This document shows, one piece after another, positions 30,689-57,550 of a stretch of DNA of 64,000 nucleotides. Position 1 is the first letter of the stretch; every line of letters begins with the position of its first letter. Made by a program: the position numbers and the translations under genes. Source of the stretch: Nitzschia sp. pyKryTriq1. Its lineage: Eukaryota; Bacillariophyta; Bacillariophyceae; Bacillariales; Bacillariaceae. The notes beneath the pieces were generated by a model. That model did no database searches. It worked only from the letters and a program-made list of their open reading frames with translations, and was not told the DNA's origin. Where the stretch lies: positions 1,056,501-1,120,500 of the forward strand of contig OY101125.1 of NCBI GenBank assembly GCA_956465555.1, in the 5' to 3' direction.

Positions 30689-32221
30689 ATGAAGGCCTCC
30701 ACTTCCACTGCTACGAAGAGAAGCCGACCATTCGACCGATGTAATTGTACAGCGAGGAGTTTCAAAGAAACCTTCTCCGTCGCGGTTGCGGTGTTCTTTA
30801 TGCTCGCAGTACCCACCGCGTTGTCCAAGAAACTCGTATTATTTGCGGGACCCCACAAGGCAGCATCCCAGAGCGTGGAGAGCTTCTTCTACAATCACGC
30901 ATCAGGATACGAAGGAACGACAATGGCGGAAGGATTGGAGGGCTGGCTGTGGCCCAAGGTGAACGAGGATTTGTGGGTAGACCAACACACTCCCATGGAA
31001 AAGTCTAGTATTTTCAATGCCTTGGTCACACAGGCAGATAATGCGACGGCTCAGATCATTTTGAAACGAGCGATTACAGACGCATGGGTTGCCTCCGAGC
31101 ACGGGATTATCATCGGTACATCCGAATTCGATCGCATCGGAAAAACTGGCTACACCCATCGCAATGGACTCTTAGCTATGCGGGGGATTTTGCAGCAACT
31201 AGGACTGGATCCTAAAGATGTGACGGTCGTTTTGAATTATCGGACTCCCCGTCGGGATCAATGGATTTCCATTTGGAAACACGCCGACGCGGATGTGCAT
31301 TACTATAAGTTCTTGTGTCATGGCAACGAAAAGGAACTACTCGAGCTCGTGGACACCTCCATGAATCCTTTGAAGCTGGCGCAGCTGTATCGAAAAGAAA
31401 AGTGGAATGTAGTCTTGATGGATATGAGTGGAGTGGATGCTATGGGAAAGGACATTTCCCATGCCATTGCGTGCGATGTTCTGGAACAAACGAAGTGTCA
31501 AGACGGTTTTGTGGTTCCAGTCATGCAAACCTACACGGAAAACTATGGTGACAAAGATTTTGGTTCCTTGGGCGACAAAGAGCAGCAAGATTTGGATCAG
31601 ATCTTCCTGGAACGAGATTGCTATTATGAACCATCGCTCCGAGACGACGGGGGATTTCAAATTCTCTACCGAGATACGATTTGGCAAGGATGTCTGCGAC
31701 CAGAAGAAAGCGAAGAAGAGGAGAAAACGCAACAAGAGCTCTATCAACATCTCTCCGATCCGGCGACTCTTTTGGATGCCATAAAGGCCCAAAAAGGGTG
31801 TGCCAAGAATGGCTTCAAGATGAATAATGTCTTAGTGGGCAAGAACTATACTTCAATGGTTGTTTCAACGATAGGTACAAAAAAAGATGAGGATGGGTCC
31901 ACCAGCGAAGTTGATGAGGAGGACGTTTTGGAAGGACTGCTCGGGGGAGAAGAGCCTTTGCTGGCAAAAAAGTCCAAGAATCGAGATTCTCCTTGGTTGA
32001 CGGCTTTCTTGGTACTGGTGGCCGGTTTCTTTGGAGTGTATCAGTTGCATCTCATCCAGCGGAATGGGAGGCGCCTTCATCATGGTCAACACAATGATCA
32101 GGGAGGGCAAGAACTGGTGGGTTTCTCGGAAAATAGCAATCCCGGCCTGTCAATTGCCTATCGGCCCGATGATTTGTCGCTAGATCCCCCGCCGGACAGT
32201 AGTGATGGGGATATTATCTAG
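30689..32221 (+). CDS. Sulfotransferase-like single-pass membrane protein, paralogue ST-A
   Basis: Single exon, 510 residues from an ATG. A signal/anchor segment (~24-45) precedes a luminal domain; a second hydrophobic helix lies near 431-450 (WLTAFLVLVAGFFGVYQLHL), followed by an acidic cytosolic tail. The luminal part opens with KLVLFAGPHKAASQSVESFF, which looks like the PAPS 5'-phosphosulfate-binding loop of sulfotransferases (G-x-x-K-x-x-S). Further on is NYRTPRRDQWISIWKH, similar to the R...S 3'-phosphate-binding motif. Shared with ST-B and ST-C: MNP..LA..Y...WNV...DM.G, the D-C-x-Y motif and a late W..C, so disulfide bonds are likely. The membership is clear; sulfotransferase activity is inference. 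A TATTATAAG motif lies ~90 bp upstream. Confidence 0.85.
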   Translation: MKASTSTATKRSRPFDRCNCTARSFKETFSVAVAVFFMLAVPTALSKKLVLFAGPHKAASQSVESFFYNHASGYEGTTMAEGLEGWLWPKVNEDLWVDQHTPMEKSSIFNALVTQADNATAQIILKRAITDAWVASEHGIIIGTSEFDRIGKTGYTHRNGLLAMRGILQQLGLDPKDVTVVLNYRTPRRDQWISIWKHADADVHYYKFLCHGNEKELLELVDTSMNPLKLAQLYRKEKWNVVLMDMSGVDAMGKDISHAIACDVLEQTKCQDGFVVPVMQTYTENYGDKDFGSLGDKEQQDLDQIFLERDCYYEPSLRDDGGFQILYRDTIWQGCLRPEESEEEEKTQQELYQHLSDPATLLDAIKAQKGCAKNGFKMNNVLVGKNYTSMVVSTIGTKKDEDGSTSEVDEEDVLEGLLGGEEPLLAKKSKNRDSPWLTAFLVLVAGFFGVYQLHLIQRNGRRLHHGQHNDQGGQELVGFSENSNPGLSIAYRPDDLSLDPPPDSSDGDII

Positions 32222-32379
32222 TGTCCGGTGCCAGACAAGATATTGCAGGTGAATCTTTGTTGGGTAGAGTACGAAGTAAACTAGATATTTCCTGTACGAA
32301 TACTGTGAGTTCTCTAAAAAAATAAAAAGAATTGGCATCGTCATTGTGAATCTGCTGGCATGGTGAGACGCTTTCAAGC

Positions 32380-33777
32380 TCATGATGACGCCGAGAAGGA
32401 TTCTTCTTCTTCTTCTTCCATATCATTCTCTTCATTGGCTTCAATGACTTCCTCTTGTTCGTGTCGTGAGATGGTTGGAACTGCGGCTTGAAATCGCCGT
32501 TGCCAATACAGCTCTTCATGATCCAACCCAATCACTTGATCCAAGGAATGATACCCGTTGTCTTTGAGGATTTGCGCCAAGTCATGTCGTAACGTAGAGA
32601 CAAGCCCTGGCCCTTGGACGATCATCCCCGAATATACTTGCACCACACTAGCTCCAGCTTTGATCTTTTCAAAGGCATCGTGAGCGGAAAAGATTCCCCC
32701 GACTCCAATGATGGGGAGTTGTCCTTTGGTTGCGGCGTACAAGAGTCGAATGCATTCCGTCGATCGTCGACACAAGGGTCTTCCAGACAAGCCACCCACC
32801 TCGTGTCGATGCGGAGATTGTAGTCCATTGGGACGTGCGGTAGTTGTATTGGTGACAATAATGCCATCTACCTTGCCGGCCTCTTTCAACTGCAAAAGAA
32901 TAACTGCAATCTCTTCCAATTGGTCGTTGGTCAAATCGGGAGATAATTTGACCAGCAAGGGGGGTACTTGCTCTAGTTCTAATTGTTGACGTGTTTCATC
33001 GCATCCGGACAAGAGATACTCAAGCGATTCCGTGGATTGCAAATCTCTCAATCCTGGAGTATTGGGACTCGATACATTGACCACCAAATAGTCCGCAAAA
33101 GGGCCCAATTCTCGTATCAAAGTTTGATAATCTTCTAGAGGAGTTTCCGAAGTCTTGTTTTTCCCTAGATTCACACCCAATAATCCCCTCGAGTTATTTT
33201 TGTTGTTGTTGCGATGATTCTTCTGTTTGGCCCGAAAGGCTTGTAGTCGTTCTCTGACCGCTTGCATGCCTTGACTGTTAAAGCCGTAACGGTTGATGAT
33301 CGCGTCGTCTTCCAAAAGTCGAAACATGCGAGGAGATGGATTTCCCGGCTGTGGTTCCAGCGTGACAGAACCAATCTCGACAAATCCAAAGCCCAAGTCC
33401 AACAAGGGCTCTATTCCTTCGGCATCTTTATCAAAGCCCGCCGCCAAGCCAATGGGATTAGGAATCGTCGGCCCACCCGGCCAAATCGTCTGTTCGACAT
33501 TTAAGTGCTGTTCCACGCTCGAAGGTCGATGCGTCGGAGCCCACTGCGGATATTTCCTCAAAAGTTCAATAGCTAAATGGTGGGCTTGTTCGGGATTGGA
33601 AATGTATCGCAACAAGGGAGTGGCGACGCGATCCGCCAGAGCATGATACGTGGCACTGGAACGGCCTTGACTGGGCACGTGCGTCGTCACCTCCAGCGTT
33701 CCCACCACCACTACGCCACCGACTACTGTGCGAAAAGTAGTGCGCCGTAAGGACTGTAAGAGAGATCGAGTCGCCAT
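32380..33777 (-). CDS. Class 2 dihydroorotate dehydrogenase (mitochondrial)
   Basis: Single exon, 465 residues from an ATG at 33777. It oxidises dihydroorotate to orotate with FMN and passes electrons to quinone, the fourth step of pyrimidine synthesis. The basic N-terminus and the helix TVVGGVVVVGTLEV fit a mitochondrial inner-membrane anchor. Core motifs: PIGLAAGFDKDAEGI, VEIGSVTLEPQPGNP, INRYGFNSQG, LVVNVSSPNTPGLRDLQ (the serine of class 2 enzymes), KLSPDLT, IIVTNTT, GGLSGRPL, and IGVGGIFSAHDAFEKIKAGA, then VQVYSG. An Asn/Lys-rich insert (~KNHRNNNKNNSRG) and an acidic Glu/Ser tail are diatom-type additions outside the barrel. All expected sites are present. Confidence 0.96.
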   Translation of the reverse strand: MATRSLLQSLRRTTFRTVVGGVVVVGTLEVTTHVPSQGRSSATYHALADRVATPLLRYISNPEQAHHLAIELLRKYPQWAPTHRPSSVEQHLNVEQTIWPGGPTIPNPIGLAAGFDKDAEGIEPLLDLGFGFVEIGSVTLEPQPGNPSPRMFRLLEDDAIINRYGFNSQGMQAVRERLQAFRAKQKNHRNNNKNNSRGLLGVNLGKNKTSETPLEDYQTLIRELGPFADYLVVNVSSPNTPGLRDLQSTESLEYLLSGCDETRQQLELEQVPPLLVKLSPDLTNDQLEEIAVILLQLKEAGKVDGIIVTNTTTARPNGLQSPHRHEVGGLSGRPLCRRSTECIRLLYAATKGQLPIIGVGGIFSAHDAFEKIKAGASVVQVYSGMIVQGPGLVSTLRHDLAQILKDNGYHSLDQVIGLDHEELYWQRRFQAAVPTISRHEQEEVIEANEENDMEEEEEESFSASS

Positions 33778-34914
33778 GGTTGCAATTAAAAATTGGAAGC
33801 TTGTTGAGATGTTATGATGCTGTACAATGGACGTTGGTTACAGGGTAGAGACATCACTTCCGATGACGATGTGCATGTTGTGCGTTGCTCGTGGGTGGGA
33901 TTTGACATCAAACCGATGACGATGTGCATGGTGCATGTTGGGTGTGATTGTGATGGGCGCGGTGACGCGACGATCGCGGCGAGATGCTGACGATGAGGGA
34001 AGATATTTCTTTTCTTCGCCTCCCATGATGATGATACGATCCATGATCAAGCAAGTATAAGATGGCGAGCCAGCGCGCATATGATAAGGCCGTTACCATG
34101 TGGCTTGCGCCAGCCGGCCATTAGCGAGTTGGCGATAGCAAATCATCCTGATTGAAGCTGGTACCTGAAAACCCGAATGTGAGGATGTAAACCGATACCC
34201 TCTATACCAAGACCAAGTCCTTGCATGGCCACATCGGCGCCCAACTATTCACACACAAGTGCGGGTTCGCTGCACCATACGACCTCCAAAGGGCGAATGG
34301 CGAGGAAATAGGCCAAAGCCTAAGGGATTTTGCCGCTGAGTTCGGGAAGCCAGAGCACCTCACCTTTGACGGCGCATTAGCCCAAAAGGGACCATGTACG
34401 AATTCGAAGTAGTATACTTCTAGCAAGAACCAGGTACATCAGTACATACACGCACCATTCGACGACGACTCCTCAACAGACTTGGAGGATCACGGACAGC
34501 CAATCAAAATACTCCTATATATTTTGAACGGTGAAGATTCCAAATTCCATCCTTCGGTTCCGATAACACGTGGATCGATTTGCCGGCTGATTGTATCGAA
34601 TCATCATCAGCAGCATCGCATGAGATGCACTGGCGTCATCGCATCGTGTAAAAGAAAAGGTTGAAGGAAGAAAACATTCTAAGAGCCCAAAGCAAGGAAG
34701 AACTTGCCGTGTTATATTATAGACGAATCATCCACTATTTTACGAGTACAGTATCTATTAGCTGCTTGTAATAGAACTGTATCATACTGTAGCGAGCGCA
34801 CTCGTCATTGATCCAGAAGAGCAGAACGACAGCATATCTGTATTCATTACAAATCAGAAGAAGAATCATCAAAAAGTGTCATCACTCTCCGGACTCTGAT
34901 CTTTCTTAAAAATC
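33778..34914. other. Intergenic region with direct repeats and an LTR-element fossil
   Basis: 1,137 bp upstream of both flanking genes (divergent). A short direct repeat (CCGATGACGATGTGCATG) occurs near 33857 and 33912. The retrotransposon fragment at 34191-34409 is listed separately. The remaining DNA up to the AlgH-like start shows no supported gene. Confidence 0.5.
34191..34409 (+). mobile_element. LTR-retrotransposon integrase fossil (Copia-like, diatom CoDi type)
   Basis: A ~73-residue stretch reads like part of an integrase core (TDTLYTKTKSL, HIGAQLFTHKCGFAAPYDLQ, GKPEHLTFDGA), as in Copia-type elements common in diatoms. No LTRs, reverse transcriptase or capsid part is seen nearby, so only a small broken relic remains. 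Age cannot be measured here; loss of everything but one fragment points to an old insertion. Confidence 0.65.
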
Positions 34915-36590: not shown

Positions 36591-36812
36591 AGGACAACAC
36601 AGAATCATCCCTACTTTTCATTCGTTCGTAGACTCTAGCAGGAAGACTAATGTTTACGAGTATAACCTCTCTAGAACTTTATTTTCGAAAGTTGATCAGC
36701 TTGCATTTCAGCCCGGTTAGATGTCCCACTATGAGGGGATCAGATCATGGTTTTATCCTTTTCATTTTCCATCACTTCAACGCGTCGCTTCTTGGAGGGG
36801 GAAAGGCCATGG

Positions 36813-37043
36813 ATGTCGACAATATGTCAAGTGCAGCGCGCTAGTTTGAGGACTTGTGTATGTCTGATACTGTTCAGTGCTGTGGCTGGTGCAGCAGAAA
36901 ACAATGACAGGATCTTCTGCTCGGAAGATACTTTTGTCTGTTCCACCGCCGGCAGAAGCAGATACTTCCACTTGGTCTTTTCAGCAGACTTCTGGCAAAA
37001 TCAAGAGGCGGGGCAACTCACAACCAAAACAGGAGGACAATGA
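36813..37043 (+). CDS. Possible small secreted protein
   Basis: Open frame of 76 residues from an ATG. A hydrophobic segment, LRTCVCLILFSAVAGAAE, looks like a signal peptide with an AGA-type cleavage site, followed by a short Cys-containing mature part. It sits in a 525-bp gap between the AlgH-like gene and a minus-strand membrane gene. No homologue is recognised, and frames of this size are common by chance, so this is only a candidate. Confidence 0.25.
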   Translation: MSTICQVQRASLRTCVCLILFSAVAGAAENNDRIFCSEDTFVCSTAGRSRYFHLVFSADFWQNQEAGQLTTKTGGQ

Positions 37044-37115
37044 ATCCAAGGAGGTCGTTCTGAACAATACTAATTGGGTCATAAACTTTGTCACTTTCCC
37101 GAAAAAAGTGTGGCG

Positions 37116-39281: not shown

Positions 39282-39367
39282 TTCAAGGTAGTCCGGACTC
39301 TATTACAACAATCGGCCTACCTCTTAACGACTTTTTTCTTATCTTTCCCGGCGGGCATGTCGTCGAC

Positions 39368-40837
39368 CTATGAGTCCAAAGCACCTTCCATGGAGCTCAA
39401 AAAGTTCATTGTTTCCTGTTCCCGATGAACCATCTCATCACAACAACGCCTCCATCGTTCCACCAAAAGAGTAACCCCCTCTTGGATGCGTTCCTTGGAG
39501 GGTTGAAGAAAACCAACATCACGTTGAAGGCTATCGACCGTAGAATCCGACGCATTCTTTGCTAAGTAAATGTAAGCATGTTCCAATCCTCTCGTCGCTG
39601 CAAGAGTACCATAGAAACGAGGGAAAAAGTACTTGTCGGGTAGCAATTCAAGAACACCTCCGCAGCGGGGCATGAACGCAGCTCCTGTCTCTTGGGCACC
39701 ATGAGGAGTAATGAGAATATCAATGCTGGCCATCATTCCAACTTGATTCAGGAAAGGCGCGCTTTCAAAATATATCACTGGGATATTATACGTGAGATTA
39801 TAATGCATCTTCAATTGTTGGGCAACGTCCTTGACATTCTTGATTCTTCGAGAGTGGAGTCGACTGAGAATACCGATTCGAGGAAAGTTGGACGAGTGGT
39901 GACAGAAGGACGATGGAATTACATGACTCAAATTCAAAGATGACAAAACACTGTCGCGAAGTGAAATCATATCCTCAATTGATGTCACCTGATAGTGGTC
40001 ACCATTTGCCTGAAGAATGGGACCTCTGGCAAGTGCGGACACGGATTGCTCATTCTCCGAAGCAATTGGGAGCGAGGCCACACTCGATGCATTCAAAACA
40101 TGAACACCAGCTTGTTGGATGGCACCGATGATTCCACGGTTGAACTCCTTGTCCATGGCCAGTTTCCAGTGATACTCGCCACTGGTGACGAATATGGGTG
40201 TTTTGTGTTCATTCGCTCGCCAAAATGACCAGCAACGAAAAAGTTGCTGAGCCAAATGCGGAAAAAAGAAAGAGTACTGATAGTCCATAAATCGACAAGT
40301 TGCATACCCTTGACCACTCGAAGGAACATTGACTACAGGTACCACCACTTTATCTTCATCCAATACCATAAAATCTGTTAGCGGCACCAGGACACTCTCT
40401 TTGTAGTTTGTCAGAACTGCGCTTTGGCCAGGGAATCTTTGAATGGCGGGTCCTTTACTTGTGGCGTCTCCATCGGTGCCTGACTCCACTGAATCCTCCT
40501 TGATTTCAGCATGGGGCCAAAAGCTCGGGCGGTACAAGTGCTGAGCTCCCAAAACGCCGTTTTTACTTTCGTTTTGCCCCACGGCCAGAAATCGGCGATC
40601 GTTGCTCAGATCGGATGAGGGAACAAATCCCCCTTGACCGGATGCTTGATGGTTCCCATTATTATTCGAAGCCTGCGTTGGCACATTCATTTGAAGTTGC
40701 AATGCAATTTCATCTTTGATGTAAATCGATGGATCATTTAGAATCGTTTGCACTATTAAAATGCTGCCGACAATGAGTGATAGCTTGGGTCCCAGACGGA
40801 TCAAGGAGTTCCAGTCAAATTCACTCTGATTCCTCAT
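39368..40837 (-). CDS. GT61-like (DUF563) type II membrane glycosyltransferase
   Basis: Single exon, 489 residues from an ATG at 40837. A short cytosolic leader and a signal anchor (LIVGSILIVQTIL, ~20-33) indicate a Golgi type II protein. The catalytic part shows the GT61 pattern: RIGILSRLHSRRIKNV, then DILITPHGAQETGAAFMPRC, then GGVLELLPDKYFFPRFY. GT61 enzymes transfer xylose, arabinose or GlcNAc in plants, animals and protists; the acceptor here is unknown. The HGAGLTN motif usual in the family reads HGAQETG. Likely role: decoration of secreted or frustule-associated glycoproteins (inference). Confidence 0.85.
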   Translation of the reverse strand: MRNQSEFDWNSLIRLGPKLSLIVGSILIVQTILNDPSIYIKDEIALQLQMNVPTQASNNNGNHQASGQGGFVPSSDLSNDRRFLAVGQNESKNGVLGAQHLYRPSFWPHAEIKEDSVESGTDGDATSKGPAIQRFPGQSAVLTNYKESVLVPLTDFMVLDEDKVVVPVVNVPSSGQGYATCRFMDYQYSFFFPHLAQQLFRCWSFWRANEHKTPIFVTSGEYHWKLAMDKEFNRGIIGAIQQAGVHVLNASSVASLPIASENEQSVSALARGPILQANGDHYQVTSIEDMISLRDSVLSSLNLSHVIPSSFCHHSSNFPRIGILSRLHSRRIKNVKDVAQQLKMHYNLTYNIPVIYFESAPFLNQVGMMASIDILITPHGAQETGAAFMPRCGGVLELLPDKYFFPRFYGTLAATRGLEHAYIYLAKNASDSTVDSLQRDVGFLQPSKERIQEGVTLLVERWRRCCDEMVHREQETMNFLSSMEGALDS

Positions 40838-42620
40838 GATATATTTCCAGTCTTCAAGTAATAGCTAATGATTAATCTTTTCAGTACTGTAGTATCTGAT
40901 TTTTTGAGCACCACCTTTCTCAGTATCGCCTTTTTCATCAATCCACACAACAATACCAGGTACGGTACTTGTACACAGTAGTCCATCAAATAAAAAATAC
41001 GCACGATAGATGAAGATGGAGCAGTCGCCGTTATTTTTTCATCAACGGTGGGGGCAGGGGCCTTTGAATTCAAATTGAGTGATCGGATTAATCGTTCCTC
41101 ACAAGGCGAAGAATGCTCACCTCGCGTGAGTCCCTTAAGTATTTTCTACATTTTTAACTGTTGCAACATTCATGTTTATTCAGTATTGAATATATCATTC
41201 GGATTCAGAAATTCATGGGCCGCCCGCCGCCGGCCCATCATCGTCTTGTGTCTTGTGTGGCAACGTCAGGGTCCATACCTGGTACGTATGTACGAGTACT
41301 GTACTACCTGGTAGAACTCCCCTAGTTACTAAAAAAAGGGGAACTCCCATTAATGCCATTTCGAAAAAGTAGTGTCGCTATAGCGATATTTTATTTTATT
41401 GTTCTATTTTTTCCAATAGTAAAATGTTTCCTCGCCGAAAACAACACAACAACTGGTCGAAAGAGCATCGAATTTGGTCCGGGTCATCTTGTGTTATTAT
41501 CAGATGTTGCTTGCCCCTTGTCTTAGCAGCTGCGGAAGGTATTTGCTCTGAGCCGGGTCTTTATTGGCAGCTGTATATGTAGATACTGTTGTCTTTGATA
41601 AGGTAGGTATGGGAGAAATGAAACATGGTGATCACTCAAAATCTCCTATCACTCTCATCCGAGGACAGATCTTGATGATTGCTTTTTGCATATTCTATTC
41701 GATAGATGGGCACACAACAGCACAGCTCTCAAAAATCAAATTATGGAAGACCTTTCAATTGTGACAGCTGGCTGGTTATCATTCCTTGATCCATTTGAAC
41801 ACACCTTTTGCTAGTAAAAACAGCCAAATTGCTGGCAATGCATTCGATGAGGGGGCCGCCCTTCTTCATTACATTGGCTGGTGGAACTGCAACGGCCACT
41901 GGTGGTAGCAGCATTACTTGAAGAACGGCTGCTAGACTATACTGCTACAATGTATGTACGAGTACTACCGGTAACAATAGATGCTGCAATTATTCGAATC
42001 TATTAGTACTGGAGCTTTTTACGCGAATGCTTTCCGGTGGATTGATCGTCAGGGTCGTAGTGGTCATCCGGTTGGGTTAGTAAGTAAAGTACAGTACGTG
42101 TACCGGTAGCGGTGTGGAACTCGCTGCGGTGGGTTTTGAGGTAATTCTGGTGAGAGGTGAGAGAGGCCTTACGGAGAGATGTACCGGTAGTTTGTGTGGC
42201 CTAAAAATTTACCGGAAGCAGCACCTCCGGGGTGTTGTGTGTTGTCACCATTTCCGGTGGCGGGAAGACGTTCGTACAAGTACTGTACCAGTATCATACA
42301 GTACCGGAGCCCTCATCTCGAGGCCTCGTCTTAGGCCTCCTTCCAAAGGATATGCATCCGGTATCCGGGTTAACTGTCGTTTCCGGGGCAGGCATCCAGC
42401 GGGGACACACTATCCCGCCGTTTAGGGCAATCACAAAAGGCCATTTGCCATTTCGAAAATTTCCGTCATGCATGCGAACCAAAGAAACAAGGAAGCACAC
42501 AACGAACAACAACATCATTCATGAAACACGGAACGAATCATCGCTGAGACGACGTACAGTAATAACACTTCCATCCCTGCGCTGTGCACATACCTCCATT
42601 AGTTCCCTACACAAACCACC
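40838..42620. other. Long intergenic region with duplicated block and GTAC clusters
   Basis: 1,783 bp. It contains copy 1 of the duplicated block (40893-41268), GTAC-rich stretches at 40964-40985, 41275-41310, 42089-42110 and 42275-42306, and a promoter zone for the SulP gene. Frames such as 42232-42819 run into the SulP start in another frame and are rejected. No gene is supported. Confidence 0.5.
40893..41268. repeat. Duplicated upstream block, copy 1
   Basis: Shares long near-identical stretches with 45250-45664: TTGAGCACCACCTTTCTCAG, AAAAAATACGCACGATAG, TCAAATTGAGTGATCGGATT and ATTCGGATTCAGAAATTCAT. In copy 2 the block is the promoter-side flank of ST-B. Here it has no gene directly downstream, so it may be the remains of a duplicated promoter or a dispersed repeat. 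Confidence 0.85.
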
Positions 42621-44957
42621 ATGGCTGCTTCGCCTTCACCCACAGGTTCACCCACGCGAAAAAGTTCCCACTCCGTTGGATCCACGGGAAAAAGACGTTC
42701 AGCAATCCCCCCGGACTTCGAGGCGGGGAGGGCTCCTGTATCCGAAGGCGACTTCTGGAACAGGTACGAGGTCAAACACTACGACGACTCGATATCGGAG
42801 CAGCTTTTGGGTAAGCTGAAAGATTGCCGTCCCTGTCCGACCTCGAAGAAGGAATGGGCGCGCTGGGGGAGGAAACGGTTCCCCCTGGTCACGTGGTTGC
42901 CAGACTACGACAGACGGTCCTTCCTTGCAGATCTGATAGCGTCCATCACGGTGGCCGTGCTCAACATTCCGCAGGGCATCAGCTACGCTCTTTTGACCGG
43001 CGTCCCGCCACAATATGGCTTGTACACTAGCATATTTCCGGGATTTGCCTATGCCATATTTGGAACGTCACGGCAAATTTCCGTTGGTACTTTCGCACTT
43101 GTCAGCTTGATGACTGCCCAGGCGGCCCAAGGCCTTGTCGGCGAGGGAAGCATCGATGGGTCCGCGACAAATATCAGGCCCGAGTATATAGACGCGACGG
43201 TTGCCATTTGTTTTACAGCGGGAATAGTGGAAATCTTGATGGGATTCCTTCGCCTTAGTGTCGTGACATTGTTCCTGAGCGACGCCCTCTTGTCGGGATT
43301 CACGTGTGGTGCAGCTTTTCACATCGCGACAAGCCAAATTAAGCAAATTTCGGGCATTTCGTCTCCTAGCTACGACAATCCAGGCGGCATTTTTCAGATA
43401 TGGGTCTGGTATCTGAAGGAAATTCCGAATTGGAACCCGGCCGATGCTGTTTGTGGCGTTATATCCATAATTCTGCTTCTCGTGATCCGGCAAATTAATA
43501 TTCGCTACAAGGATAAGTTTGTCATGCCGATACCAGGCGAACTCATTGTGACAGCGTTGGCCATTCTCATTACTTATCTCGCCGACCTCGGCGTAACTGT
43601 TGGGCTTTCACTACTTGGTGAAGTACCCGCTGGACTGCCCAAACCTGCAATTCCCTCTTTCTCAGCCGGTTTTGGAGCGCTGTTCGTCGCTTCCATTCCT
43701 ATTGCGATTGTTTCCTATGTGATATCTATTTCTATTGTCAAAACGTTTTCAAGGAAACACGGATATCATACAAATTCCAGCCAAGAATTGTACGCCCTTG
43801 GTGCAGCGTCGATCTTCGGGTCTTTATTCCTCAGTTTCCCACCATCTGGAAGTTTGAGTCGTAGCGCAGTTGGAAATGAAGCTGGTCAGAAGACACAAAT
43901 TGCTTCACTCTTGCAGGGTGCCATATTGATTTTAGTGGTTCTATTCGCCACGCCGGCATTTGCTTACCTTCCGAAGAGTGTCCTTGGTGCGATCATTTTG
44001 GTGGCGTTGCGAGGACTTCTTCTTCAGGTCTTTGACGCCAAAGAATATGCAAAGATCAAGGCAGCAGATTTTTATGTGTGGGTAATCTCATTTGTGGGAA
44101 CTTTGGTGTTCAATGTTACGATTGGGGTCGTTATCGCGTTGGCGGCCAATCTCGCTGTTATCATTATTCGCACTTCACGGCCTTCAATCCAACTGCTTGG
44201 ATGGATACCAAACACAGAAATATACCGTGACAAGGAAAGGGTGGAGGATGCTGTTGACATCGAGGGAGTCATCGTGATGCGCTTCAATGCCTCCATATAT
44301 TATAGCAATGCACGATACTTGCAAGATCGGGCAATGGCGGCGCTGCGCAATTCCGACCAAGACAACATTCATTCATTCATACTTGACTGCAACCCTATCA
44401 ACGATGTCGATACTGCTGGAGTAAAGATGCTTTTGGAACTTCGAAGGGATTTGAAGAAAGCCAATGTGACTCTGTATTTAGCAATGTGCAAGGGGGCGGT
44501 TCGTGATGTCCTCAAGAGGGGCGGGTTCTACGATGACGAGGGCTCAAAATATCTTTTCGTGTCACTACATGATGCGATAGTTTTTGCTGTCTACGGTGGG
44601 CCGCGGCAACAGTCGTCCGAACAGGCCGACGCTTTGCATCCGGAGATCACCGACCGACCGATTACGACTGGTGAGAATGACACAGATGACAGAGATGCGA
44701 TTGCACTCACGGACGCAGACGTGGCCATCTCTATGATGAATGCAAATCTTGACGATTCCGATGATGAGGAGGATGATGTACGTGATATCCACAGCATACG
44801 TCGTCGCCGCCGTGCGAATGGTCAGCTAACATCTGATGGGACTACGACTGGACGATCTACCGAAGATGGATTGCCATACATTTCTCGACTGCATAGCGCG
44901 CAACTTGAGCTTCCAGTGTTTACAAACATTCCAAATGAAAATGGGGATGATGTATAG
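42621..44957 (+). CDS. SulP/SLC26-family anion transporter with STAS domain
   Basis: Single exon, 778 residues from an ATG in good context (ACCACCATGG). It is a multi-pass carrier or exchanger of sulfate, bicarbonate, chloride or other anions. After a Ser-rich leader (1-60) come LADLIASITVAVLNIPQGIS, YALLTGVPPQYGLYTSIFPG (the SulP signature) and about 12-14 helices to ~520. A cytosolic STAS domain (~540-670: DIEGVIVMRFNASIYYSNAR, LDCNPINDVDTAGVKML) and an acidic, Arg/Asp-rich tail follow. The size and the STAS domain fit eukaryotic SLC26 and plant SULTR. The presence of sulfotransferase-like paralogues nearby makes sulfate supply an attractive idea, but the transported ion cannot be read from sequence. 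Confidence 0.95.
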   Translation: MAASPSPTGSPTRKSSHSVGSTGKRRSAIPPDFEAGRAPVSEGDFWNRYEVKHYDDSISEQLLGKLKDCRPCPTSKKEWARWGRKRFPLVTWLPDYDRRSFLADLIASITVAVLNIPQGISYALLTGVPPQYGLYTSIFPGFAYAIFGTSRQISVGTFALVSLMTAQAAQGLVGEGSIDGSATNIRPEYIDATVAICFTAGIVEILMGFLRLSVVTLFLSDALLSGFTCGAAFHIATSQIKQISGISSPSYDNPGGIFQIWVWYLKEIPNWNPADAVCGVISIILLLVIRQINIRYKDKFVMPIPGELIVTALAILITYLADLGVTVGLSLLGEVPAGLPKPAIPSFSAGFGALFVASIPIAIVSYVISISIVKTFSRKHGYHTNSSQELYALGAASIFGSLFLSFPPSGSLSRSAVGNEAGQKTQIASLLQGAILILVVLFATPAFAYLPKSVLGAIILVALRGLLLQVFDAKEYAKIKAADFYVWVISFVGTLVFNVTIGVVIALAANLAVIIIRTSRPSIQLLGWIPNTEIYRDKERVEDAVDIEGVIVMRFNASIYYSNARYLQDRAMAALRNSDQDNIHSFILDCNPINDVDTAGVKMLLELRRDLKKANVTLYLAMCKGAVRDVLKRGGFYDDEGSKYLFVSLHDAIVFAVYGGPRQQSSEQADALHPEITDRPITTGENDTDDRDAIALTDADVAISMMNANLDDSDDEEDDVRDIHSIRRRRRANGQLTSDGTTTGRSTEDGLPYISRLHSAQLELPVFTNIPNENGDDV

Positions 44958-45756: not shown

Positions 45757-47253
45757 ATGATGAAAGCCCCCCTACTAGCTCTCTTGGCAATGATGGGGTC
45801 TGCTATTGCAGAGAAACATCTGGTTTTTCTGGCAGGCCCGCGCCAATCGGATTCCTCGGAGGTTGATCATTTCTTTCACACTCATGCTTTGGGAACCAAG
45901 GCGAATAACACTGGCTTAAAAGGATGGGTCTGGCCAATCATTAACGCTGAGTTGCCGGGAGAGAAGCATAGATATTTTGAGAACTTTTTCTGGAATGCCC
46001 AAAACGCAACAGTGAAGAACATTTTGATGGAGAGTATTCAAGATGCTTGGAAAAGTGCCGAACATGGTGTTATTATTGGAGCGGAAGGATTTGGTAACAC
46101 CCGTGGTGATCCGCAATCTGTTGGTCTCAAGACTATGGATGAAATTATCTCCAAGCTCAATGTTCCAATGGAGCACGTTCATGTCGTGATGCTCTACAGG
46201 TCCCCCCGCTTGGACCAGTGGGTTAGCTTGTACCACCATAATGCCATCTATGACTACGAATCCTTTGTCTGCGAAGAAGATTACACCGAGCATCTGGCGA
46301 ATATTCCAATGAACCCCTTCATGGTGGCGAGTGTCTACCGAGAGCACGGTTGGAATGTGGCTACCATCGACGTGGCTGGTACTCACAATAAAGAATTGGA
46401 TCTATCTCATACGGTCGCCTGCCGTGTTCTTCCCAAAACCGAGTGCCAAAATGACTGGATCGCTGGTCTCGAAGACCAAACTACCAGGGACGAAAGGGTG
46501 AACTTGGGAGAATTTACTGGCTTGCCTTTGAGCCAACAGAACGAATTGGAAGGAATGTTCCAAGGCCGTGACTGTTACTACAAAGATAAGCTCGAGTCCG
46601 ACAACGGATTTAAGGTTGTCCACGAAGAGGCTGTGTGGGTGAAGTGTGGTACCTCCGACTCCGAGAAGGACCGCTACCATCAGCTCACAGACAATGAGCA
46701 CTTTTTCGATCTCATCAAAACTCAAATCGGATGCGGTAAATCTCGAGGAAAAGCCCCTGTTGTTCCCAGTCTTCCAGCTGTGTTCACTGGGACTACAGCC
46801 CAATCATTCTGGGAAACCCACGAAATTAGCCTACTGGTTCTATCTGTGTTGGTCGCCACCTTTTTGACTTACCAGCTTATTGCAAGGTTCAAGCGTCGAC
46901 AAACCCATTACGTCAAGTCTCCCAGGCGTGGGGAAGACATGTGGATCGACTTTGCTGATGGTGCTTTTAAAATCGAAAATAATTTGAGAAGCCCCAACAA
47001 CGACGACGAGGATGGACCTCTTACTGATGTGGACTTGATGTCTCCGGAATACAAGAACCGAGCCAAGGCCGATGCTTTAGACTCGCCCGAAGCATTGGAC
47101 CCGATGACTGCTGCGGCCAAGGAAGGAAAGTCGGTCCGTGGAATGTACCGCGTCGGTCTCTACCAAGACGTTTCCTCGGTCAAAAACACACCCCAGAAGG
47201 GCGACAGTGACATTGAAATCAAGATCAAGACTCTTGAAAATGAATTCGCCTAG
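45757..47253 (+). CDS. Sulfotransferase-like single-pass membrane protein, paralogue ST-B
   Basis: Single exon, 498 residues from an ATG (tandem ATGATG). It has a signal peptide (MMKAPLLALLAMMGSAIAE), a luminal domain, a C-terminal helix (~350-372: EISLLVLSVLVATFLTYQLI) and an acidic cytosolic tail of ~120 residues. It follows ST-A and ST-C through all common motifs: YRSPRLDQWVSLYHH, MNPFMVASVYREHGWNV and the D-C-Y-Y motif. The loop at the start reads GPRQSDSSEVDHFF, so the lysine seen in ST-A and ST-C (GPHKAAS) is Gln. If that loop binds PAPS, ST-B may be inactive or regulatory. Function is otherwise unproven. Confidence 0.85.
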   Translation: MMKAPLLALLAMMGSAIAEKHLVFLAGPRQSDSSEVDHFFHTHALGTKANNTGLKGWVWPIINAELPGEKHRYFENFFWNAQNATVKNILMESIQDAWKSAEHGVIIGAEGFGNTRGDPQSVGLKTMDEIISKLNVPMEHVHVVMLYRSPRLDQWVSLYHHNAIYDYESFVCEEDYTEHLANIPMNPFMVASVYREHGWNVATIDVAGTHNKELDLSHTVACRVLPKTECQNDWIAGLEDQTTRDERVNLGEFTGLPLSQQNELEGMFQGRDCYYKDKLESDNGFKVVHEEAVWVKCGTSDSEKDRYHQLTDNEHFFDLIKTQIGCGKSRGKAPVVPSLPAVFTGTTAQSFWETHEISLLVLSVLVATFLTYQLIARFKRRQTHYVKSPRRGEDMWIDFADGAFKIENNLRSPNNDDEDGPLTDVDLMSPEYKNRAKADALDSPEALDPMTAAAKEGKSVRGMYRVGLYQDVSSVKNTPQKGDSDIEIKIKTLENEFA

Positions 47254-50154: not shown

Positions 50155-53100
50155 CTAACGGCCAAAATATTGCTCCACCATCGCCTGGACGATGGAGACC
50201 CCCTTTCGTTCCCATTCCTTGCGATTCTCCAGAGCATAGGAAAGATATTCGTCACTCGAGACCCCAAAGACTCCGCAGTCCTTCAATTTCTTGGACAACG
50301 GAATGACGTAGTTATCAAAGAACCACAATTCGCCCTTGTACCAGCCCAAGGAGGGGTCGGTCTCGCTTCTTCCGTCTTGAAAGGCTTGGTACATTTCATT
50401 GAAAAGACGTTGGTTCCATCGCTGGTAGATATGCCAATGCTGCATTGTGTGAGCGACATCTGAAGCTTGAATCACATGCTCAATGACAATGGTCGCCTTG
50501 CGATTGATATCAAATTCGGACTGGCTGCTGCTATTCTCGACCGCAAAGGCCTTCTCCCATCGCGATTTGCGCAATTGACCGAGGTCCTTGTCAAAGATAT
50601 CTGTCGCGATGACACAATTGACTACCAACTTGCGGAACAAGTCCATGTCGGCCTTGGTTGCAAAGATGCACTTGCGAAGATTTTGATACTCAGGCCCCAT
50701 GAGGAAATCCCACGCAATATCCACGGACTGCTGTTCGGCGAGACTCTGGTTTCGGTACTTTTCAGCGATCTCAGGGCTTTCCTTTGCGAGTATTGCGTTG
50801 GGGACACCGCTGTGACCAGCGTCGTGAATCATTGCGGCAAAGACGCAAGCAAATTGTGTCATGGGATCCGACGTAATGCCATAGGTTTGATCATAAATGG
50901 AGCGGGCGACCTGTTCCCTCTGCTCCGCCACCGAACCGTTCAAGGTACCAACCGTAACATCGGGAGATACAATGCGACCAAGAAGCTTTGTGACAGACAT
51001 GGTCACGTGGGAACAGTGCTCGAAATTATGGAACGAGTTGGGTAGGTAGCAAGAAGCAATGGTGATTACAAAGTCTCGAAGCTCACCCATGACGACCGGG
51101 TCCAACTCGATGGACTCAGGATCAACTGTGTTTCTATGTGCCGATGGGTCAAACGCTGGAAGTTCGATCACTTCCCGAACCTCATCCATCACAATCATAC
51201 CAGTACCAGAACTAGAGAGCTGGGAGTTATCGGTATCGGTAAACGACTTGTTTTTCTTCTTGTTGCTGGTCGCTTGGCGTCTGGCGACAATCTGACGAAT
51301 CAAGCGGGCAAGAATGTCAGTATTCCACTGGATAAGTCGCTCGGTGCGCTCGTCCAAGTAATCGACGCCAGCTGCTCCCTCGGATGCCTCGCCACCAGAC
51401 GAAGCAGAAAACCCGCTGGCTACAGACCCAGCGTTGCGAAGTCGAGGTTCAATCCAGTAGGTTTGCATCTCGCCCTTGCCCTTGGCTGTCACTTTTTCCT
51501 TGCGAGCTCGGACCCAACTATTCTTTCCAGCCGTGAGCAGATAGTCCACTGTTGATTGCGATGCTTGGATACGACCAGGTATTCCCGTTGACTCCATGCG
51601 ACTGGCGGTGTTAACGGTGTCTCCAAACAATTGGAATCGGCTCTTCTGTCCTCTGAGCACTCCAGCGGTCACTGGACCCGAGTTGAGACCAAAACGGAGC
51701 ATCAGATCGGCAGTGTCGGGGCCCAACTCTTTTTCGAGTTCTCGAGTCAACAGGTCGAACTTCTCACGACAATCCCTTGCAAATTTGCACATTACAGTTG
51801 CATGGTTCGGTCTGGGTTCGGGCAAGCCGCAGGCGGCGACATAGGAATCACCGATGGTCTCGACTTTGAAGACCTTGCGCTTATCCGCAAGGGCATCGAA
51901 CGCTCCGTAGACACTCTCCAAGAGACAAAAAACTTGTTGAGGATCTCTCGTGGACGACCAGGCAGTGAAACCTGCAATATCGGCAAACATGACCGTCTAG
52001 GACGCAAGGAGCAAGCGCGAACGAAGGTTGGTGGAGGGTGATTAGTGTTGTTCAACTGGATCGAATATGTGACAAGCCAGAACCCCAACATAAACTTACT
52101 GCCTCGGGGAATAAATCTGCAATGGCCGGCCCCTTGTTTTTGATCACGCCCGAAGAAGGTGTTATTGTGCCATCCTCCCCATATTTCTCCATGGCCGAAG
52201 GAACCTGTTTGGTGAGGAAAGCCCCTTTCTTTGAAACCTTTGCTTGCTTTTCATCATCAAACAAACGATCGCGCACGTTTGAGGGGAAGAGAGAACTGAC
52301 GATGGCTGTAGATTTCTGGGCCGCGCCGTATACTTTTTTCTGCCGACGCTCCACGATGCAATCGTAAAACAAAAAGACAACTGCCGTAAACACAAAGATC
52401 ATGACAGTTACAACAGTAAATATGATCGGGTCATTGCTGATGTAGTTATCTTCCATCGTGACCGAAGGGTAGACTCGAATGTGGAAGGGGCAATACTCCT
52501 CGTCGAGCGGAACTCCTGTATACGTCTGAATCTCACCCTGGTATTCGCTCAACTCATTGAGCCAGGCCGAGATCTCGAGGTAGTCGAAGCTCGGGTCATG
52601 CCTATCTCCTCGACCAAGGTAGATTACATCGGGACCATTGATCTGAAAGGTGAAAGTAGGATTGCACTCGTTTTCAAAGACCAAGACAATGCCATCCGAA
52701 CCAGGAGGCAAAATCTGAATAGGTTCAATCGCGCGATGAAAAATTTGGGTGAGAACGCGATATCGTTTCTGTCTACATTTGCAAAGTGGCCCATTCAAAA
52801 TCAGGAACACTCACGTCTTCAATGAGGTCTCGCCAGTAGATTGACATGGCCATGACAGCGACGAGCTTTCCCACTTCTTCCGTCATATTACCGTCGCTAC
52901 CATAGAGCTCCACATTTTCAGCGGCATTATCAAATACGGGGTAATACATGTCAGAGATCGGCTCAGAAGGATCTTGACCGGCGTCGACATACTGAGAATA
53001 CCATTCGATCAACCATTCCGTTTGCTGCACCATCTCGGGATCGTTCTCGTCTGGCAAGAGATAAGCTTCAGTGAAGATTACTTTACCCGTGTCCAAAAGC

Positions 53101-53942
53101 TTCTCGAGAGACCAGTTGTCCGCAATCGAGAAAATGTCCCAACTATATATAGGGCATCCGTAGCTGCAGGGGATAACGGGGTATGATTGCCACTGTGGCA
53201 AAAGAATGCTTCGATTGTACGGCACATCACCGAAGTCGTCAGTGATGACGTCATAAGGTACCCAAGTATAGTTCACTTCGCCAAGATATGTGGAGTCTCT
53301 CTCTTGCACTGCGATTGTCTCGTTCACCCAGTAGTTGTTCGGGCCAGTGTATGCCTCCCAGTCGAGCCTAGTCTCGTCGGTGACCACCGTGTAAATGTTA
53401 ACGAAGACTGCATCGGAAAGACTTTTGGTCTTCTTGGCTTTAACCCCAAAATCTGGGAGGGTCACAAGAGGCCAGGTTGAGTTTGATGCTTTGGCGTAGC
53501 TTGCCAGTCCGACCACAAAGGAGTCCAAAGCTCCCATGGTGAGATCCAACTTGGAACCCAGCGTGACGAGGATCTTGTTGGCATCTGCAAGGAAATCTTC
53601 TTCGAACTGGGTGTTTTCCTCGTTATCAACGTAGAAAAATACAATTAGGGCTACGCTGATAGTCGAGGCGACCAAAACCAGAATTACCAGGAGACGGATT
53701 CCAAGAACTTGTCGATTCAATTCGTTGCCAAGAATCTTGTCCTCTTGCGCTTGTTCTTTTTGATTTGCGCGATTCGATCGAGAGAGACTCGTGCCGGTCC
53801 CAGTACTTGACTTCGACGCCTTGTCATCGTCGTCGTCGTCGTCGTCGTCTGGTGGATCAGAATCGACTCCATCGTGGGTCTCGTCGATGGCCCGACCGTG
53901 TTCCTTCTCCAGTCGTTCTTGAGTCAGCTTCATGCTTTGCAC
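50155..53942 (-). CDS. Transmembrane nucleotide cyclase fused to cyclic-nucleotide phosphodiesterase (CP-B)
   Basis: Three exons, complement(join(50155..51996,52100..52714,52815..53942)), 1,194 residues; introns of 103 and 100 bp, both phase 0. Same plan as CP-A: cytosolic leader with an Asp run, TM1, extracellular sensor (~350 residues), TM2 (VVTVMIFVFTAVVFLFYDCI), class III cyclase (VMFADIAGFTAWSS, VETIGDSYVAA, SRFQLFGDTVNTASRMES) and phosphodiesterase (FHNFEHCSHV, HDAGHSGVPN, SDVAHTMQHW). Metal aspartates are present in the cyclase. The usual phosphodiesterase purine Gln position again reads Glu (GELWFFD). The linker between the two enzymes is longer than in CP-A and Ser/Lys-rich. The gene retains none of the CP-A intron positions. 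Confidence 0.92.
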
Positions 53943-54525
53943 ACTTTTTCTTCAATTTCTAAAAACTATGAGACATTATGTTTCGTGTTTCGTGTCGATT
54001 ATTCTAGATGGAAGGTCGCCGGAAGGAGGAAGGAGGAGTCCCAGTGATAATTTCTCACGCCTGTGTAATGCACGAGTAATACTCGTAGGTGTACCAGAGT
54101 AATGTTTTTTCATAAGTAATGTTTCTCCGACAGGTCATTATCATAATATATTATGTGATCTCAAACAGTCTAGTTTCTTTATGTACTCGCTGCTCGTAGT
54201 GAAAAGACCGATGCGGAGAAATATAAATATTAAATATTGATATTATTGGAGCACGACATGCTCGCTGTCGACGTAACCAACCACCGCGAACGAAATATTA
54301 AGCCCGTAAATCACAACTCCGCGCGCCACACGGACAACGAAACGGACACCGACGCTATCTGAAGCTCCGACCTCCGTTTGGCTCGTTCAATAGATGATAC
54401 ACTTTGAATTTTTTTAAAATAGTAAAACGACATACGACATGGGAGCGAAAGGGAACAATTGATGATATTGTTGTTGTCATGTCGACATCTCCATACACCG
54501 GTAGGCTATCCCTAGTAGTACACCT
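53943..54525. other. Divergent intergenic region (CP-B and LigB-like gene)
   Basis: 583 bp between head-to-head genes. It is A/T-rich near 54225-54245 and 54405-54425, with an ACACCGGTAGG motif at 54496-54506 shortly before the plus-strand ATG. No coding frame is supported. Confidence 0.5.
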
Positions 54526-55968
54526 ATGATCGTCTATGCGCGGTGGAGTACCACTTCCATGTATTACCGCAACTGTTTTCTGGTCGTCGGGGTGCTGTCG
54601 ATAATTACTAGTATTTTGACCCTACTCCCGCTGTCGTTTCATGGAGCGCTCGAGCCGGACACGACGAAGAAAGCCAGCAGCAGCACACGTACCGGTACGA
54701 GTACACGAAGTGCTGTACCTGTATCTCAAACAACAATCCCGGGGCTCTTGTTGCCCCATGGAGATTTTGCCTGGGATCCCACCTTGGTGGATCAAGATGA
54801 CTTCGAAACTCGGCAGGCGGCTAACGAGGTAGCTCTTGGATCCAGGCAGGCTGCCGCCTCCTTTTGGCACTCGACCATCGCGACGTCGACGTCGCCCCGT
54901 CATACTTTTTTGTTAGTGACACCTCATGGCATTCAATTGGATCATGATTTTGGATTGTACATGGCTCATTCGGGCAGTGGTACTGCAACGATTGGAAACG
55001 ATATCGTTGACAACAAGAGTAGAACCCAACCCAAAAAGTACAATATCACCATTTCCGACTTGCCCTTGAATCTCGAGGCATCCCAAAACTTGCTTGAATT
55101 TTTGCAAGAGAATCCAAACTCCAACGTTTCGGGAATTTATCCTTACAATGACGCTTTTCCGATACCCTTGAACTGGGGAGAAATCATACCGTTGAAACTG
55201 CTACAAATGCAAAAAGAAGAGCAGCAACCACCAAAGAACACGTCTAGTACTACTACTAGGAGGAGGAGCCAAAAAGAGCAAACCACCGTCCAATATATGA
55301 TTCTATCCATGCCACATCGTCGATACGACCATGCTGCCGAGATGGTTCCAGAATTGTTAAAATTGGGAGAGCGGGTGGGACAATGGATACTACTAAAGAA
55401 TGCGACCACACTTCCTGCTGCAAATACTCACAGATATCATCCTCCGCCCCAACAAGAATCATTTTCCTTGGTGATATCGGGAGACTTATCACATACACAT
55501 CAAGCATCAGGACCATATGGATATTCCAATACAAGCGAGGCGATGGATAGGGCACTGGGAGCTTGGGCCTCGGATCCCTGTCGCTTCCAAGATTCTCTCT
55601 TGGAAACTGCACGGCAACTCCAACCAGAAGCGCTTTCGTGTGGGTTCACGGGATATGTTTTTTGGCAAGGAATCCTACGGAGTCAGTGGAAAGAGAAGAA
55701 GCATCAACGAACGAGATTGTGCAGTGGCATCTCCGATGGTGTACCAACGAGGGAAGAGGAGGAGGAGGACCAAAATAGCGATCATGCTTCCTCTTTCTTT
55801 TCTGTTTCAGCCAGCAGGAGTACTACTACTACTACTACTATGGGTACACGAGCACAACTACGAGGCCTGGAAGTTCATCAGCGATCCGAAATATCCAAAG
55901 TCTACGTCAATCGAAATGTGACGTACTACGGCATGATGGCAGCTACATTTTTGTGGGATAGTGAATAG
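54526..55968 (+). CDS. Membrane-anchored LigB-like (class III extradiol dioxygenase fold) protein
   Basis: Single exon, 480 residues from an ATG. A signal anchor (CFLVVGVLSIITSILTLLPL, ~17-37) places the rest in the lumen or outside. The body follows the LigB order: LLLPHGDFAWDP, then TFLLVTPHGIQLDHDFGLYM, IPLNWGEIIPLKLL, and late SLVISGDLSHTHQASGPYGY. The His of LLPHGD, the TPHG His and the SGDLSH His are candidates for the metal site, as in extradiol dioxygenases and related MEMO proteins. Low-complexity Ser/Thr and Gln/Arg inserts are present. The fold call is moderately firm; the substrate is unknown, and a secreted or membrane LigB protein would be unusual. Confidence 0.72.
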   Translation: MIVYARWSTTSMYYRNCFLVVGVLSIITSILTLLPLSFHGALEPDTTKKASSSTRTGTSTRSAVPVSQTTIPGLLLPHGDFAWDPTLVDQDDFETRQAANEVALGSRQAAASFWHSTIATSTSPRHTFLLVTPHGIQLDHDFGLYMAHSGSGTATIGNDIVDNKSRTQPKKYNITISDLPLNLEASQNLLEFLQENPNSNVSGIYPYNDAFPIPLNWGEIIPLKLLQMQKEEQQPPKNTSSTTTRRRSQKEQTTVQYMILSMPHRRYDHAAEMVPELLKLGERVGQWILLKNATTLPAANTHRYHPPPQQESFSLVISGDLSHTHQASGPYGYSNTSEAMDRALGAWASDPCRFQDSLLETARQLQPEALSCGFTGYVFWQGILRSQWKEKKHQRTRLCSGISDGVPTREEEEEDQNSDHASSFFSVSASRSTTTTTTMGTRAQLRGLEVHQRSEISKVYVNRNVTYYGMMAATFLWDSE

Positions 55969-56119
55969 ATTACAATGCTACCCCTGAGTACCAGGTACTA
56001 TAGAACGTAAACGAATTAAAAGCATACACATGTGCATCACTAGATTTTACTAGTCATATGTAAACAACGAATATAGTACGTAGTCACTTCCTCCTTTCCC
56101 TATCCCGACGACTGGGCAT

Positions 56120-57550
56120 TCAATCTTTGTAGGAAGAGCCAATTTCGTCTTCAAACTCCTCATCCGCGTCCCCATACTCGGCATCCACGTTGGCGTCATT
56201 GTTGAATTGACCCTCCTCAAATCTCGGTCCGGTAGCAGCGGTCTCAATACGATGTGCCCCCGCGGGCAATTCCCTCGTATTTGTCATGCGATGGTATTGA
56301 TAGCCCATTGCCCCGACTACAATAAAAACGAACAGGACAAATTCCATGAAGATGCTTCCCATCGAACGTTTAGCCCTTGTGGCGCTCCCGCCGGTTATGG
56401 CGGCATGCATGTCGACCATTCCCTTCTTGCCCAAGGGGTTTCCTTTGGGGCATTTGATTTGACTCAAAAGAGCCGCATACATGGTACTGGGTTCTTCTCG
56501 CAATCTGGTATAAGCTTTCGACATTTTTGGATCACAGTCGTGCCACACCGAATGATTGTAGACAATACCAAATTTCACGTTTACGCGCAAGGCAAGTTCA
56601 TACGAACAATCCAAGGATCGGAAGAGTTGTTCCGCCTCTTCCTGCTGCGTCTGTGTGAGGGCGGAAAACTCAGTCTCGACCACGTTCTTGTGGGGCTTGT
56701 TGCCTTGATGATTAAGTACAACACCTTCTTCGCATCGGGCCGCTACCACATCACATGCCACTACATGAGAGATATCACGACCCTCTGCTTCCACACCCTC
56801 CATATCAATCAACCGGACATTCCACCCTTCATTCACAAAGGCTTGGGCGGCATTCAATGGATTCATTTGCGTTGCCAAGACTTCGGTGTGTTTTGACGCG
56901 AGATCGGCATCGCACATCCATTCGTTATATTCTGCCGTGTAATCTTCATTGTTCGTATCATGGCTCCACATGGAGGCCCACTGTTCGAGACGAGGAGTCC
57001 GGTAATTCAAGGCCACCGTGACATCATTCGGATGCACATTCAAGTACGTGACAACCTTTCGCAAGGCCTTCATGGCATCATAGGACGTGTGCTCCCCAAT
57101 TTGATCAAACATTTCCGATCCAATAACGACTCCTTCGATCCCTTGGGTCTCCCAAGCTTCCCGAATGCCTTCCAGGATTTCCTTTTCCAACACCTCGTTG
57201 CCCGCGTCTGTCACCAGATGCCCAAAGATCTTGTAGGGTTCGTCCGGTTCAGTCACATCTGCTACTTTCCCAGAGACCTGAGGCCACAACCAGAAACGCA
57301 ATCCAAAGGTCTTTTTGCGCTCTTCGTTGTCCTTCTTATTTCCATTCCCGTCATAACGCGAATGTCCTGACGCGTATTCGTAAAAGAAGGATTCGACGGA
57401 GGTCGACGCCGCCTTGTGAGGTCCAGCGAAAATCACGAGTTTGGTATTCCCCGCGACGATGGGGGAAAGAGAGAACCACAAGAGGAACGATAAGAAAGAC
57501 GCCCAACTGAGCGATGAGGGGAAACGGGAATAATGCGCGAATTCTGTCAT
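56120..57550 (-). CDS. Sulfotransferase-like single-pass membrane protein, paralogue ST-C
   Basis: Single exon, 476 residues from the first in-frame ATG (57550; the frame is open to a TTG at 57601). Signal peptide (LSWASFLSFLLWFSLSPIVA), then the loop KLVIFAGPHKAASTSVESFF, the best match in the family to a PAPS-binding loop, then NYRTPRLEQWASMWSH, MNPLNAAQAFVNEGWNV, DISHVVACDVV, a D-C-x-Y motif and W-H-D-C. A C-terminal helix (IFMEFVLFVFIVVGAMGYQY) and an acidic tail complete the plan. It is about as similar by eye to ST-A as to ST-B, and lies in the opposite orientation to both. Confidence 0.86.
   Translation of the reverse strand: MTEFAHYSRFPSSLSWASFLSFLLWFSLSPIVAGNTKLVIFAGPHKAASTSVESFFYEYASGHSRYDGNGNKKDNEERKKTFGLRFWLWPQVSGKVADVTEPDEPYKIFGHLVTDAGNEVLEKEILEGIREAWETQGIEGVVIGSEMFDQIGEHTSYDAMKALRKVVTYLNVHPNDVTVALNYRTPRLEQWASMWSHDTNNEDYTAEYNEWMCDADLASKHTEVLATQMNPLNAAQAFVNEGWNVRLIDMEGVEAEGRDISHVVACDVVAARCEEGVVLNHQGNKPHKNVVETEFSALTQTQQEEAEQLFRSLDCSYELALRVNVKFGIVYNHSVWHDCDPKMSKAYTRLREEPSTMYAALLSQIKCPKGNPLGKKGMVDMHAAITGGSATRAKRSMGSIFMEFVLFVFIVVGAMGYQYHRMTNTRELPAGAHRIETAATGPRFEEGQFNNDANVDAEYGDADEEFEDEIGSSYKD

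Follow-up and report, generated by a model that had tools for sequence, protein, structure and literature searches.

Three genes in a 64,000-nucleotide stretch of the Nitzschia sp. pyKryTriq1 genome (hereafter the window; positions 1056501-1120500 of contig C11), here called ST-A, ST-B, and ST-C, are members of an eight-gene diatom family that is likely a strongly diverged branch of the P-loop 3'-phosphoadenosine 5'-phosphosulfate (PAPS)-sulfotransferase superfamily, in which ST-A and ST-C would be membrane-anchored lumenal sulfotransferases and ST-B a degenerate paralogue. A preliminary description of the window had singled out these genes as paralogous, sulfotransferase-like membrane proteins and as the best candidate for an undescribed system. 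The last term is too strong, as what we see looks like a divergent enzyme family. An open reading frame (ORF) listing with translations confirmed three long ORFs where they had been placed, in both orientations and with other genes between them. Their principal features are as follows.

30689..32221, + strand: ST-A, one ORF of 510 amino acids (aa), with an N-terminal hydrophobic stretch at residues 28-46, an ectodomain with six family-conserved Cys, a C-terminal transmembrane (TM)-like helix at 438-456, and an acidic 54-aa tail; predicted active
30848..30868, + strand: ST-A candidate loop for the 5'-phosphosulfate of PAPS, GPHKAAS, with Lys57
31238..31264, + strand: ST-A candidate 3'-phosphate motif, YRTPRRDQW (Arg185; Ser194 slightly downstream)
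32000..32056, + strand: ST-A C-terminal TM-like helix, by hydropathy
45757..47253, + strand: ST-B, one ORF of 498 aa, with ST-A-like architecture and Gln30 in place of the PAPS-loop Lys; predicted pseudoenzyme
45835..45855, + strand: ST-B degenerate loop, GPRQSDS
46195..46221, + strand: ST-B candidate 3'-phosphate motif, YRSPRLDQW, kept (Arg148; Ser157 slightly downstream)
46825..46881, + strand: ST-B C-terminal TM-like helix, by hydropathy
56120..57550, - strand: ST-C, one ORF of 476 aa, with ST-A-like architecture and an acidic tail; predicted active
57404..57424, - strand: ST-C candidate PAPS loop, GPHKAAS, with Lys46
56978..57004, - strand: ST-C candidate 3'-phosphate motif, YRTPRLEQW (Arg184; Ser193 slightly downstream)
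56306..56362, - strand: ST-C C-terminal TM-like helix, by hydropathy

The paralogy of the three genes was borne out by an all-against-all blastp of the window ORFs (E 5e-42 to 1e-70) and by tblastn from ST-A to the other two (E 3e-59 and 1e-63), with pairwise identities of ~30-41%. We rejected the idea that the family is limited to the window cluster: searches of the 40.65-Mb genome (20 contigs) with A, E, C, and H as queries gave eight loci, A to H, of which three (A, B, and C) are on C11, two each on C9 (D and E) and C6 (F and G), and one (H) on C12. Eight is a lower bound, because the genome searches score best candidates only. Identities between members range from 19 to 41% overall, and H, which gave a weak tblastn match (E 0.008), nonetheless showed profile homology to the family (hhalign 98.8%, E 4e-17; reversed control, 2.0%). 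Member F consists of two overlapping frames (L011:1989-2390 and 2366-3220, both +), reflecting an intron, a frame break, or an assembly error; it was left split and used as two pieces. No relatives of the family were found in viral contigs, nor did the family's own patterns find any in prokaryote genomes.

In sulfotransferases, a loop binds the 5'-phosphosulfate of PAPS and an Arg/Ser pair binds its 3'-phosphate. Candidates for both elements recur across the family in the same order. The YR(T/S)PRx(D/E)QW element, searched for as DNA, occurred 3 times, against 0.04 expected in shuffles, and the D-C-x-Y and W..C motifs are invariant across ST-A, ST-B, and ST-C, as had been proposed. The GPHKAAS-type loop had been attributed to all three proteins; it is present in ST-A and ST-C, whereas ST-B carries the lysine-less GPRQSDS. 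Over the eight members, the loop Lys is found in six (ST-B and G have Gln), the Arg in seven, and the Ser in seven, with all three residues together in A, C, D, E, F, and H. Members A to G, seven in all, share six conserved ectodomain Cys. A genome-wide search for codons of a GPHKx(A/G)(S/T)-like pattern returned nine places, against one for the backwards control. Six of these were A, C, D, E, F, and H, and one was a remote relative, I, on contig C3; the remaining two, inside a 31-aa and a 128-aa ORF, show no further resemblance to the family. Relative I (L069:483-1796, - strand; C3:2462k) is a 438-aa ORF with an N-terminal hydrophobic stretch, judged by eye, the loop GPHKPATTSIQ, the motif YRRFFEWLPS, and no Pfam match, and we regard it as another unclassified sulfotransferase-like protein. 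The loop of H reads PHKTGTTSV (KTGTTS), next to GPHKPATTSI in I.

A prokaryote scan with H plus I yielded four relatives among 30 pattern matches, all bacterial proteins with HIGPHKTGTTSIQ-like loops (L078-L081). Their best Pfam matches were to Sulfotransfer_4 (E 0.0035), Sulfotransfer_1 (E 0.0058), and Sulfotransfer_4 (E 0.24), in three of the four proteins and all below cut-off; the fourth had none. In an alignment of ten rows, six from the diatom (A, C, D, E, H, and I; B, F, and G were left out) and four bacterial, every row carried G-P-H-K as well as the Arg and Ser of the 3' motif, and nine had the Glu of an SExF motif, the exception being ST-A (GTSEFD), where the Glu is shifted by one. 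The Arg and Ser are separated by one extra residue in A to F and H relative to the bacterial proteins and I. With all members included, the family profile matched the four bacterial proteins at 85.8% (hhalign, E 5e-6, 141 columns) and the bacterial proteins plus I at 91.0% (E 1e-6), the match spanning 141-143 columns and including the later motif with the Arg and Ser; reversed-sequence controls for the bacterial comparison gave 0.1-0.2%. Relative I taken by itself was matched at 89.4% (E 2e-6; reversed controls, 0.4-0.7%), falling to 64.3% without H and 42.8% without F and H. Among the 29 window ORFs of at least 250 aa, compared with the bacterial profile as a negative control, ST-C ranked first (16.4%) and ST-A second (12.7%), values that are low because single sequences were used; ST-B came third at 0.7%, hardly separated from the other 26 (≤0.6%). 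The family profile run against window ORFs gave 11.5% for one unrelated ORF, over 7 tail columns.

The AlphaFold models of ST-A and ST-C, weak as they are, look P-loop-like. All 50 rows listed by VIA-align for the ST-A model were P-loop folds, judged from their titles, and among these matches the 14 sulfotransferase rows aligned over 184-206 residues and the other 36 over ≤175. Sulfotransferases gave the longest structural alignments with both models, though not the highest-scoring ones. The genome also has two APS-kinase places, as required for PAPS synthesis.

Hydropathy, the only method applied to topology, detected a C-terminal TM-like helix in ST-A, ST-B, and ST-C alike. The signal peptides proposed earlier correspond to N-terminal hydrophobic stretches seen by the same measure, and the proposed acidic tail stands for ST-A (9 D/E, 4 K/R) and ST-C (15, 5), while that of ST-B is near neutral (23, 20). 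Elsewhere in the family there is some diversity by hydropathy: D, E, and G have the C-terminal helix with no N-terminal hydrophobic segment in the ORF, their tails being short and basic in D and E (0, 5 and 0, 8) and mildly acidic in G (22, 13), the second piece of F has no TM-like helix at the threshold applied, and H, outside the window, has an N-terminal helix only and is type II-like. ST-A and ST-C are most likely type I membrane proteins of the secretory pathway, with a putative lumenal site and putative use of PAPS, and are probably active enzymes. In such a scheme, the N-terminal hydrophobic segment would insert the protein into the membrane and the C-terminal helix would anchor it. The ectodomain, presumably disulfide bonded, would bind PAPS through the GPHKAAS loop on the 5'-phosphosulfate and the Arg...Ser motif on the 3'-phosphate, and sulfate would be transferred to a lumenal protein or glycan.

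Several results qualify the assignment to the sulfotransferases. None of members A to H, nor relative I, scored above the curated Pfam cut-off, and Foldseek returned no match at E≤0.001. Sulfotransferase structural matches did not rise above background Z, kinase-like and GTPase chains equaled or exceeded them by Z with both models, and tubulin and other chains without a P-loop are listed as well for the ST-C model. How strong the bacterial match is hinges on F and H: with F but not H it was 70.0% over 65 columns, and with neither it was 39.4% over 24 columns around the loop. Other searches were likewise negative, with no match for A, C, H, or I in NCBIfam or PHROGs, nothing significant in PDB sequence searches with ST-A, with an alignment of A, C, D, and E, or with H, and nothing at E≤0.001 from Foldseek on a viral library, where a Hokovirus sulfotransferase appeared at rank 36 only. 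The genome has 19, 30, and 15 Sulfotransfer_1, _2, and _3 places, none of which is A to H. The family profile found no significant match among those compared (7/19, 8/30, and 6/15), a comparison in which two of three control pairs failed too. When these 21 rows were compared singly, the best alignment for L056, L057/L016, and L018 superposed the known PAPS loop and the loop of the family, at 0.4-4.2%, and the highest-scoring row, L053 (21.9%), matched over tail columns; we give neither any weight. L016 and L057 are one protein present twice, and the loop position was not located in every row (L044 unchecked). Separately, three Sulfotransfer_1 matches recur with equal scores and order at C1:4295457-4471461 and C3:3156119-3334126, which suggests a duplicated or haplotig segment.

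The proteins could instead have another P-loop fold, of the nucleotide-kinase type, with a likeness to sulfotransferases that is limited to the first loop. Kinase-like P-loop chains such as 2vli and the adenylate kinases do score as well as or better than sulfotransferases by Z, and the reduced bacterial match is confined to the loop. However, the loop is GPHKxAS, with no Walker A sequence (GxxxxGK[ST]) there, the all-member match runs through the later Arg/Ser motif, and the sulfotransferase rows are the longest for both models, and we give this reading only a slim chance. It is somewhat easier, although still unlikely, to imagine a family that is non-catalytic as a whole, its members being anchored in the membrane and serving in binding or adhesion on a scaffold inherited from old sulfotransferases. 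The loss of the loop Lys in B and G (with the Arg and Ser also gone from G), the absence of Glu from the conserved column in ST-A, and the strong divergence (19-40% between members) would all fit. Yet six of the eight members retain the full set of Lys, Arg, and Ser despite that divergence; these residues should be the first to go once a scaffold is relaxed, as in B/G.

Alternatively, the proteins might be tail-anchored sulfotransferases that face the cytosol and act on small molecules such as sterols, like the reported cytosolic diatom sulfotransferases (SULTs). This would suit D, E, and G, with a C-terminal helix as the sole hydrophobic segment in the ORF, and sterol sulfates and SULT genes are described for Skeletonema in the available part of PMC5670183. 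The N-terminal segment present in A, B, and C speaks against it, as do the six conserved Cys of A to G, which fit an oxidizing lumen, and an upstream signal-peptide exon could still exist for D to G; we consider the cytosolic arrangement improbable. Taken together, superfamily membership, as proposed in the preliminary description, is supported by the profile links, the shared order of Lys, Arg, and Ser, and the P-loop-like models, and a branch of lumenal PAPS-sulfotransferases that includes degenerate members remains our preferred reading.

What did not hold from the earlier proposal is uniform activity. With no loop lysine in ST-B, PAPS-dependent activity cannot be presumed for all of ST-A, ST-B, and ST-C, and we rejected equal activity of the three for this reason. 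B and G form a clade in the tree (support 97/94), and both lack the Lys (GPRQSDS in B, GPQQSYS in G), with G also lacking the 3'-motif Arg and Ser. From these sequences, B and G seem to form an old lineage of pseudoenzymes, most simply explained by one Lys loss before the B/G split and long retention since. Such retention after a single loss suggests a non-catalytic role; ST-B itself is most likely a pseudoenzyme, and maybe a partner or regulator of its active paralogues.

ST-A, ST-B, and ST-C are a local, old cluster. Three of the eight loci fall within 26.9 kb, an outcome reached in 21 of 400,000 random placements (contig borders ignored). Two neighboring genes deserve mention.

42618..44954, + strand: SLC26/SulP anion (sulfate-type) transporter with a STAS domain, between ST-A and ST-B
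39371-40864, - strand: Glyco_transf_61 gene

The transporter gene shares the strand of ST-B and ends ~0.8 kb short of it; a second SLC26 gene lies outside the window at C11:1125358-1126621, ~11 kb past ST-C. The genome has 8 silicon-transporter places, which mark it as a diatom's. We counted 13 SLC26 places in it, two of them inside the 39.4-kb interval that begins at ST-A and runs to the second SLC26 gene. The chance of at least two in such an interval is 8e-5 and that of at least one is 1.3%, for a choice made post hoc. The SLC26 pieces are 27-37% identical, compared with 31% to the copy on C7, and the two nearby genes may derive from an old local duplication. Their position next to the ST genes is suggestive of a functional neighbor in sulfate handling, which we offer as a lead only. 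A module for lumenal sulfation, combining active type I enzymes (A and C) and a dedicated old pseudoenzyme lineage (B/G) with an SLC26-enriched neighborhood, so that sulfate supply and surface sulfation would be encoded together, strikes us as rather doubtful.

The window also holds two paralogous receptor-like nucleotide cyclase genes (13194-16868 and 50158-53951, both - strand), one upstream of the ST cluster and one between ST-B and ST-C, which share 62% identity over 282 aa of the phosphodiesterase part. The latter copy, the only one tested, has Guanylate_cyc and PDEase_I matches. Immediately upstream of ST-A (29207-30509) are direct repeats, comprising a 203-bp pair at 99% (29207, 29564) and a 165-bp pair at 98% (29404, 30345).

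If active, the family would represent a sulfotransferase branch flagged by no Pfam model, and annotation would therefore miss it. It would also add a type I membrane lineage with a layout like that of the plant tyrosylprotein sulfotransferase (TPST). B/G, with a loop lysine apparently lost once, before their split, would provide a test case for pseudoenzyme evolution. No description of the family was found in the open-access literature as far as its text was available, including PMC4659905, a scope that leaves aside subscription journals and preprints. Diatom sulfotransferases have been suggested, in the accessible portion of PMC8329260, to help make the sulfated polymer exudates for raphid motility.

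With respect to known systems, the closest likeness in motifs is to proteins that are themselves uncharacterized. The bacterial proteins share the GPHK loop, the SExF motif, and the 3'-motif Arg and Ser, in identical order, but their ORFs are 278-525 aa long, L080 ends shortly after the Ser, the Arg-to-Ser spacing is 8 rather than the 9 of the family, and the diatom rows are only 13-18% identical to L079. The Sulfotransfer_1/2/3 proteins of the same genome share the superfamily by motif logic, with no profile match to A to H. Animal TPSTs (e.g., 3ap3 and 5wrj) gave no match in the PDB sequence search and a Z not above background, and they are type II proteins according to the part of PMC4082320 available, unlike ST-A, ST-B, and ST-C, which look type I by hydropathy. 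The same part of that source describes plant TPST as a type I membrane protein with a C-terminal TM segment, and the Arabidopsis enzyme is given as a 500-aa Golgi protein without standard SULT regions in the available text of PMC4199319. In layout, with an N-terminal stretch and a C-terminal helix by hydropathy, the three diatom proteins resemble plant TPST, as compared by published description only.

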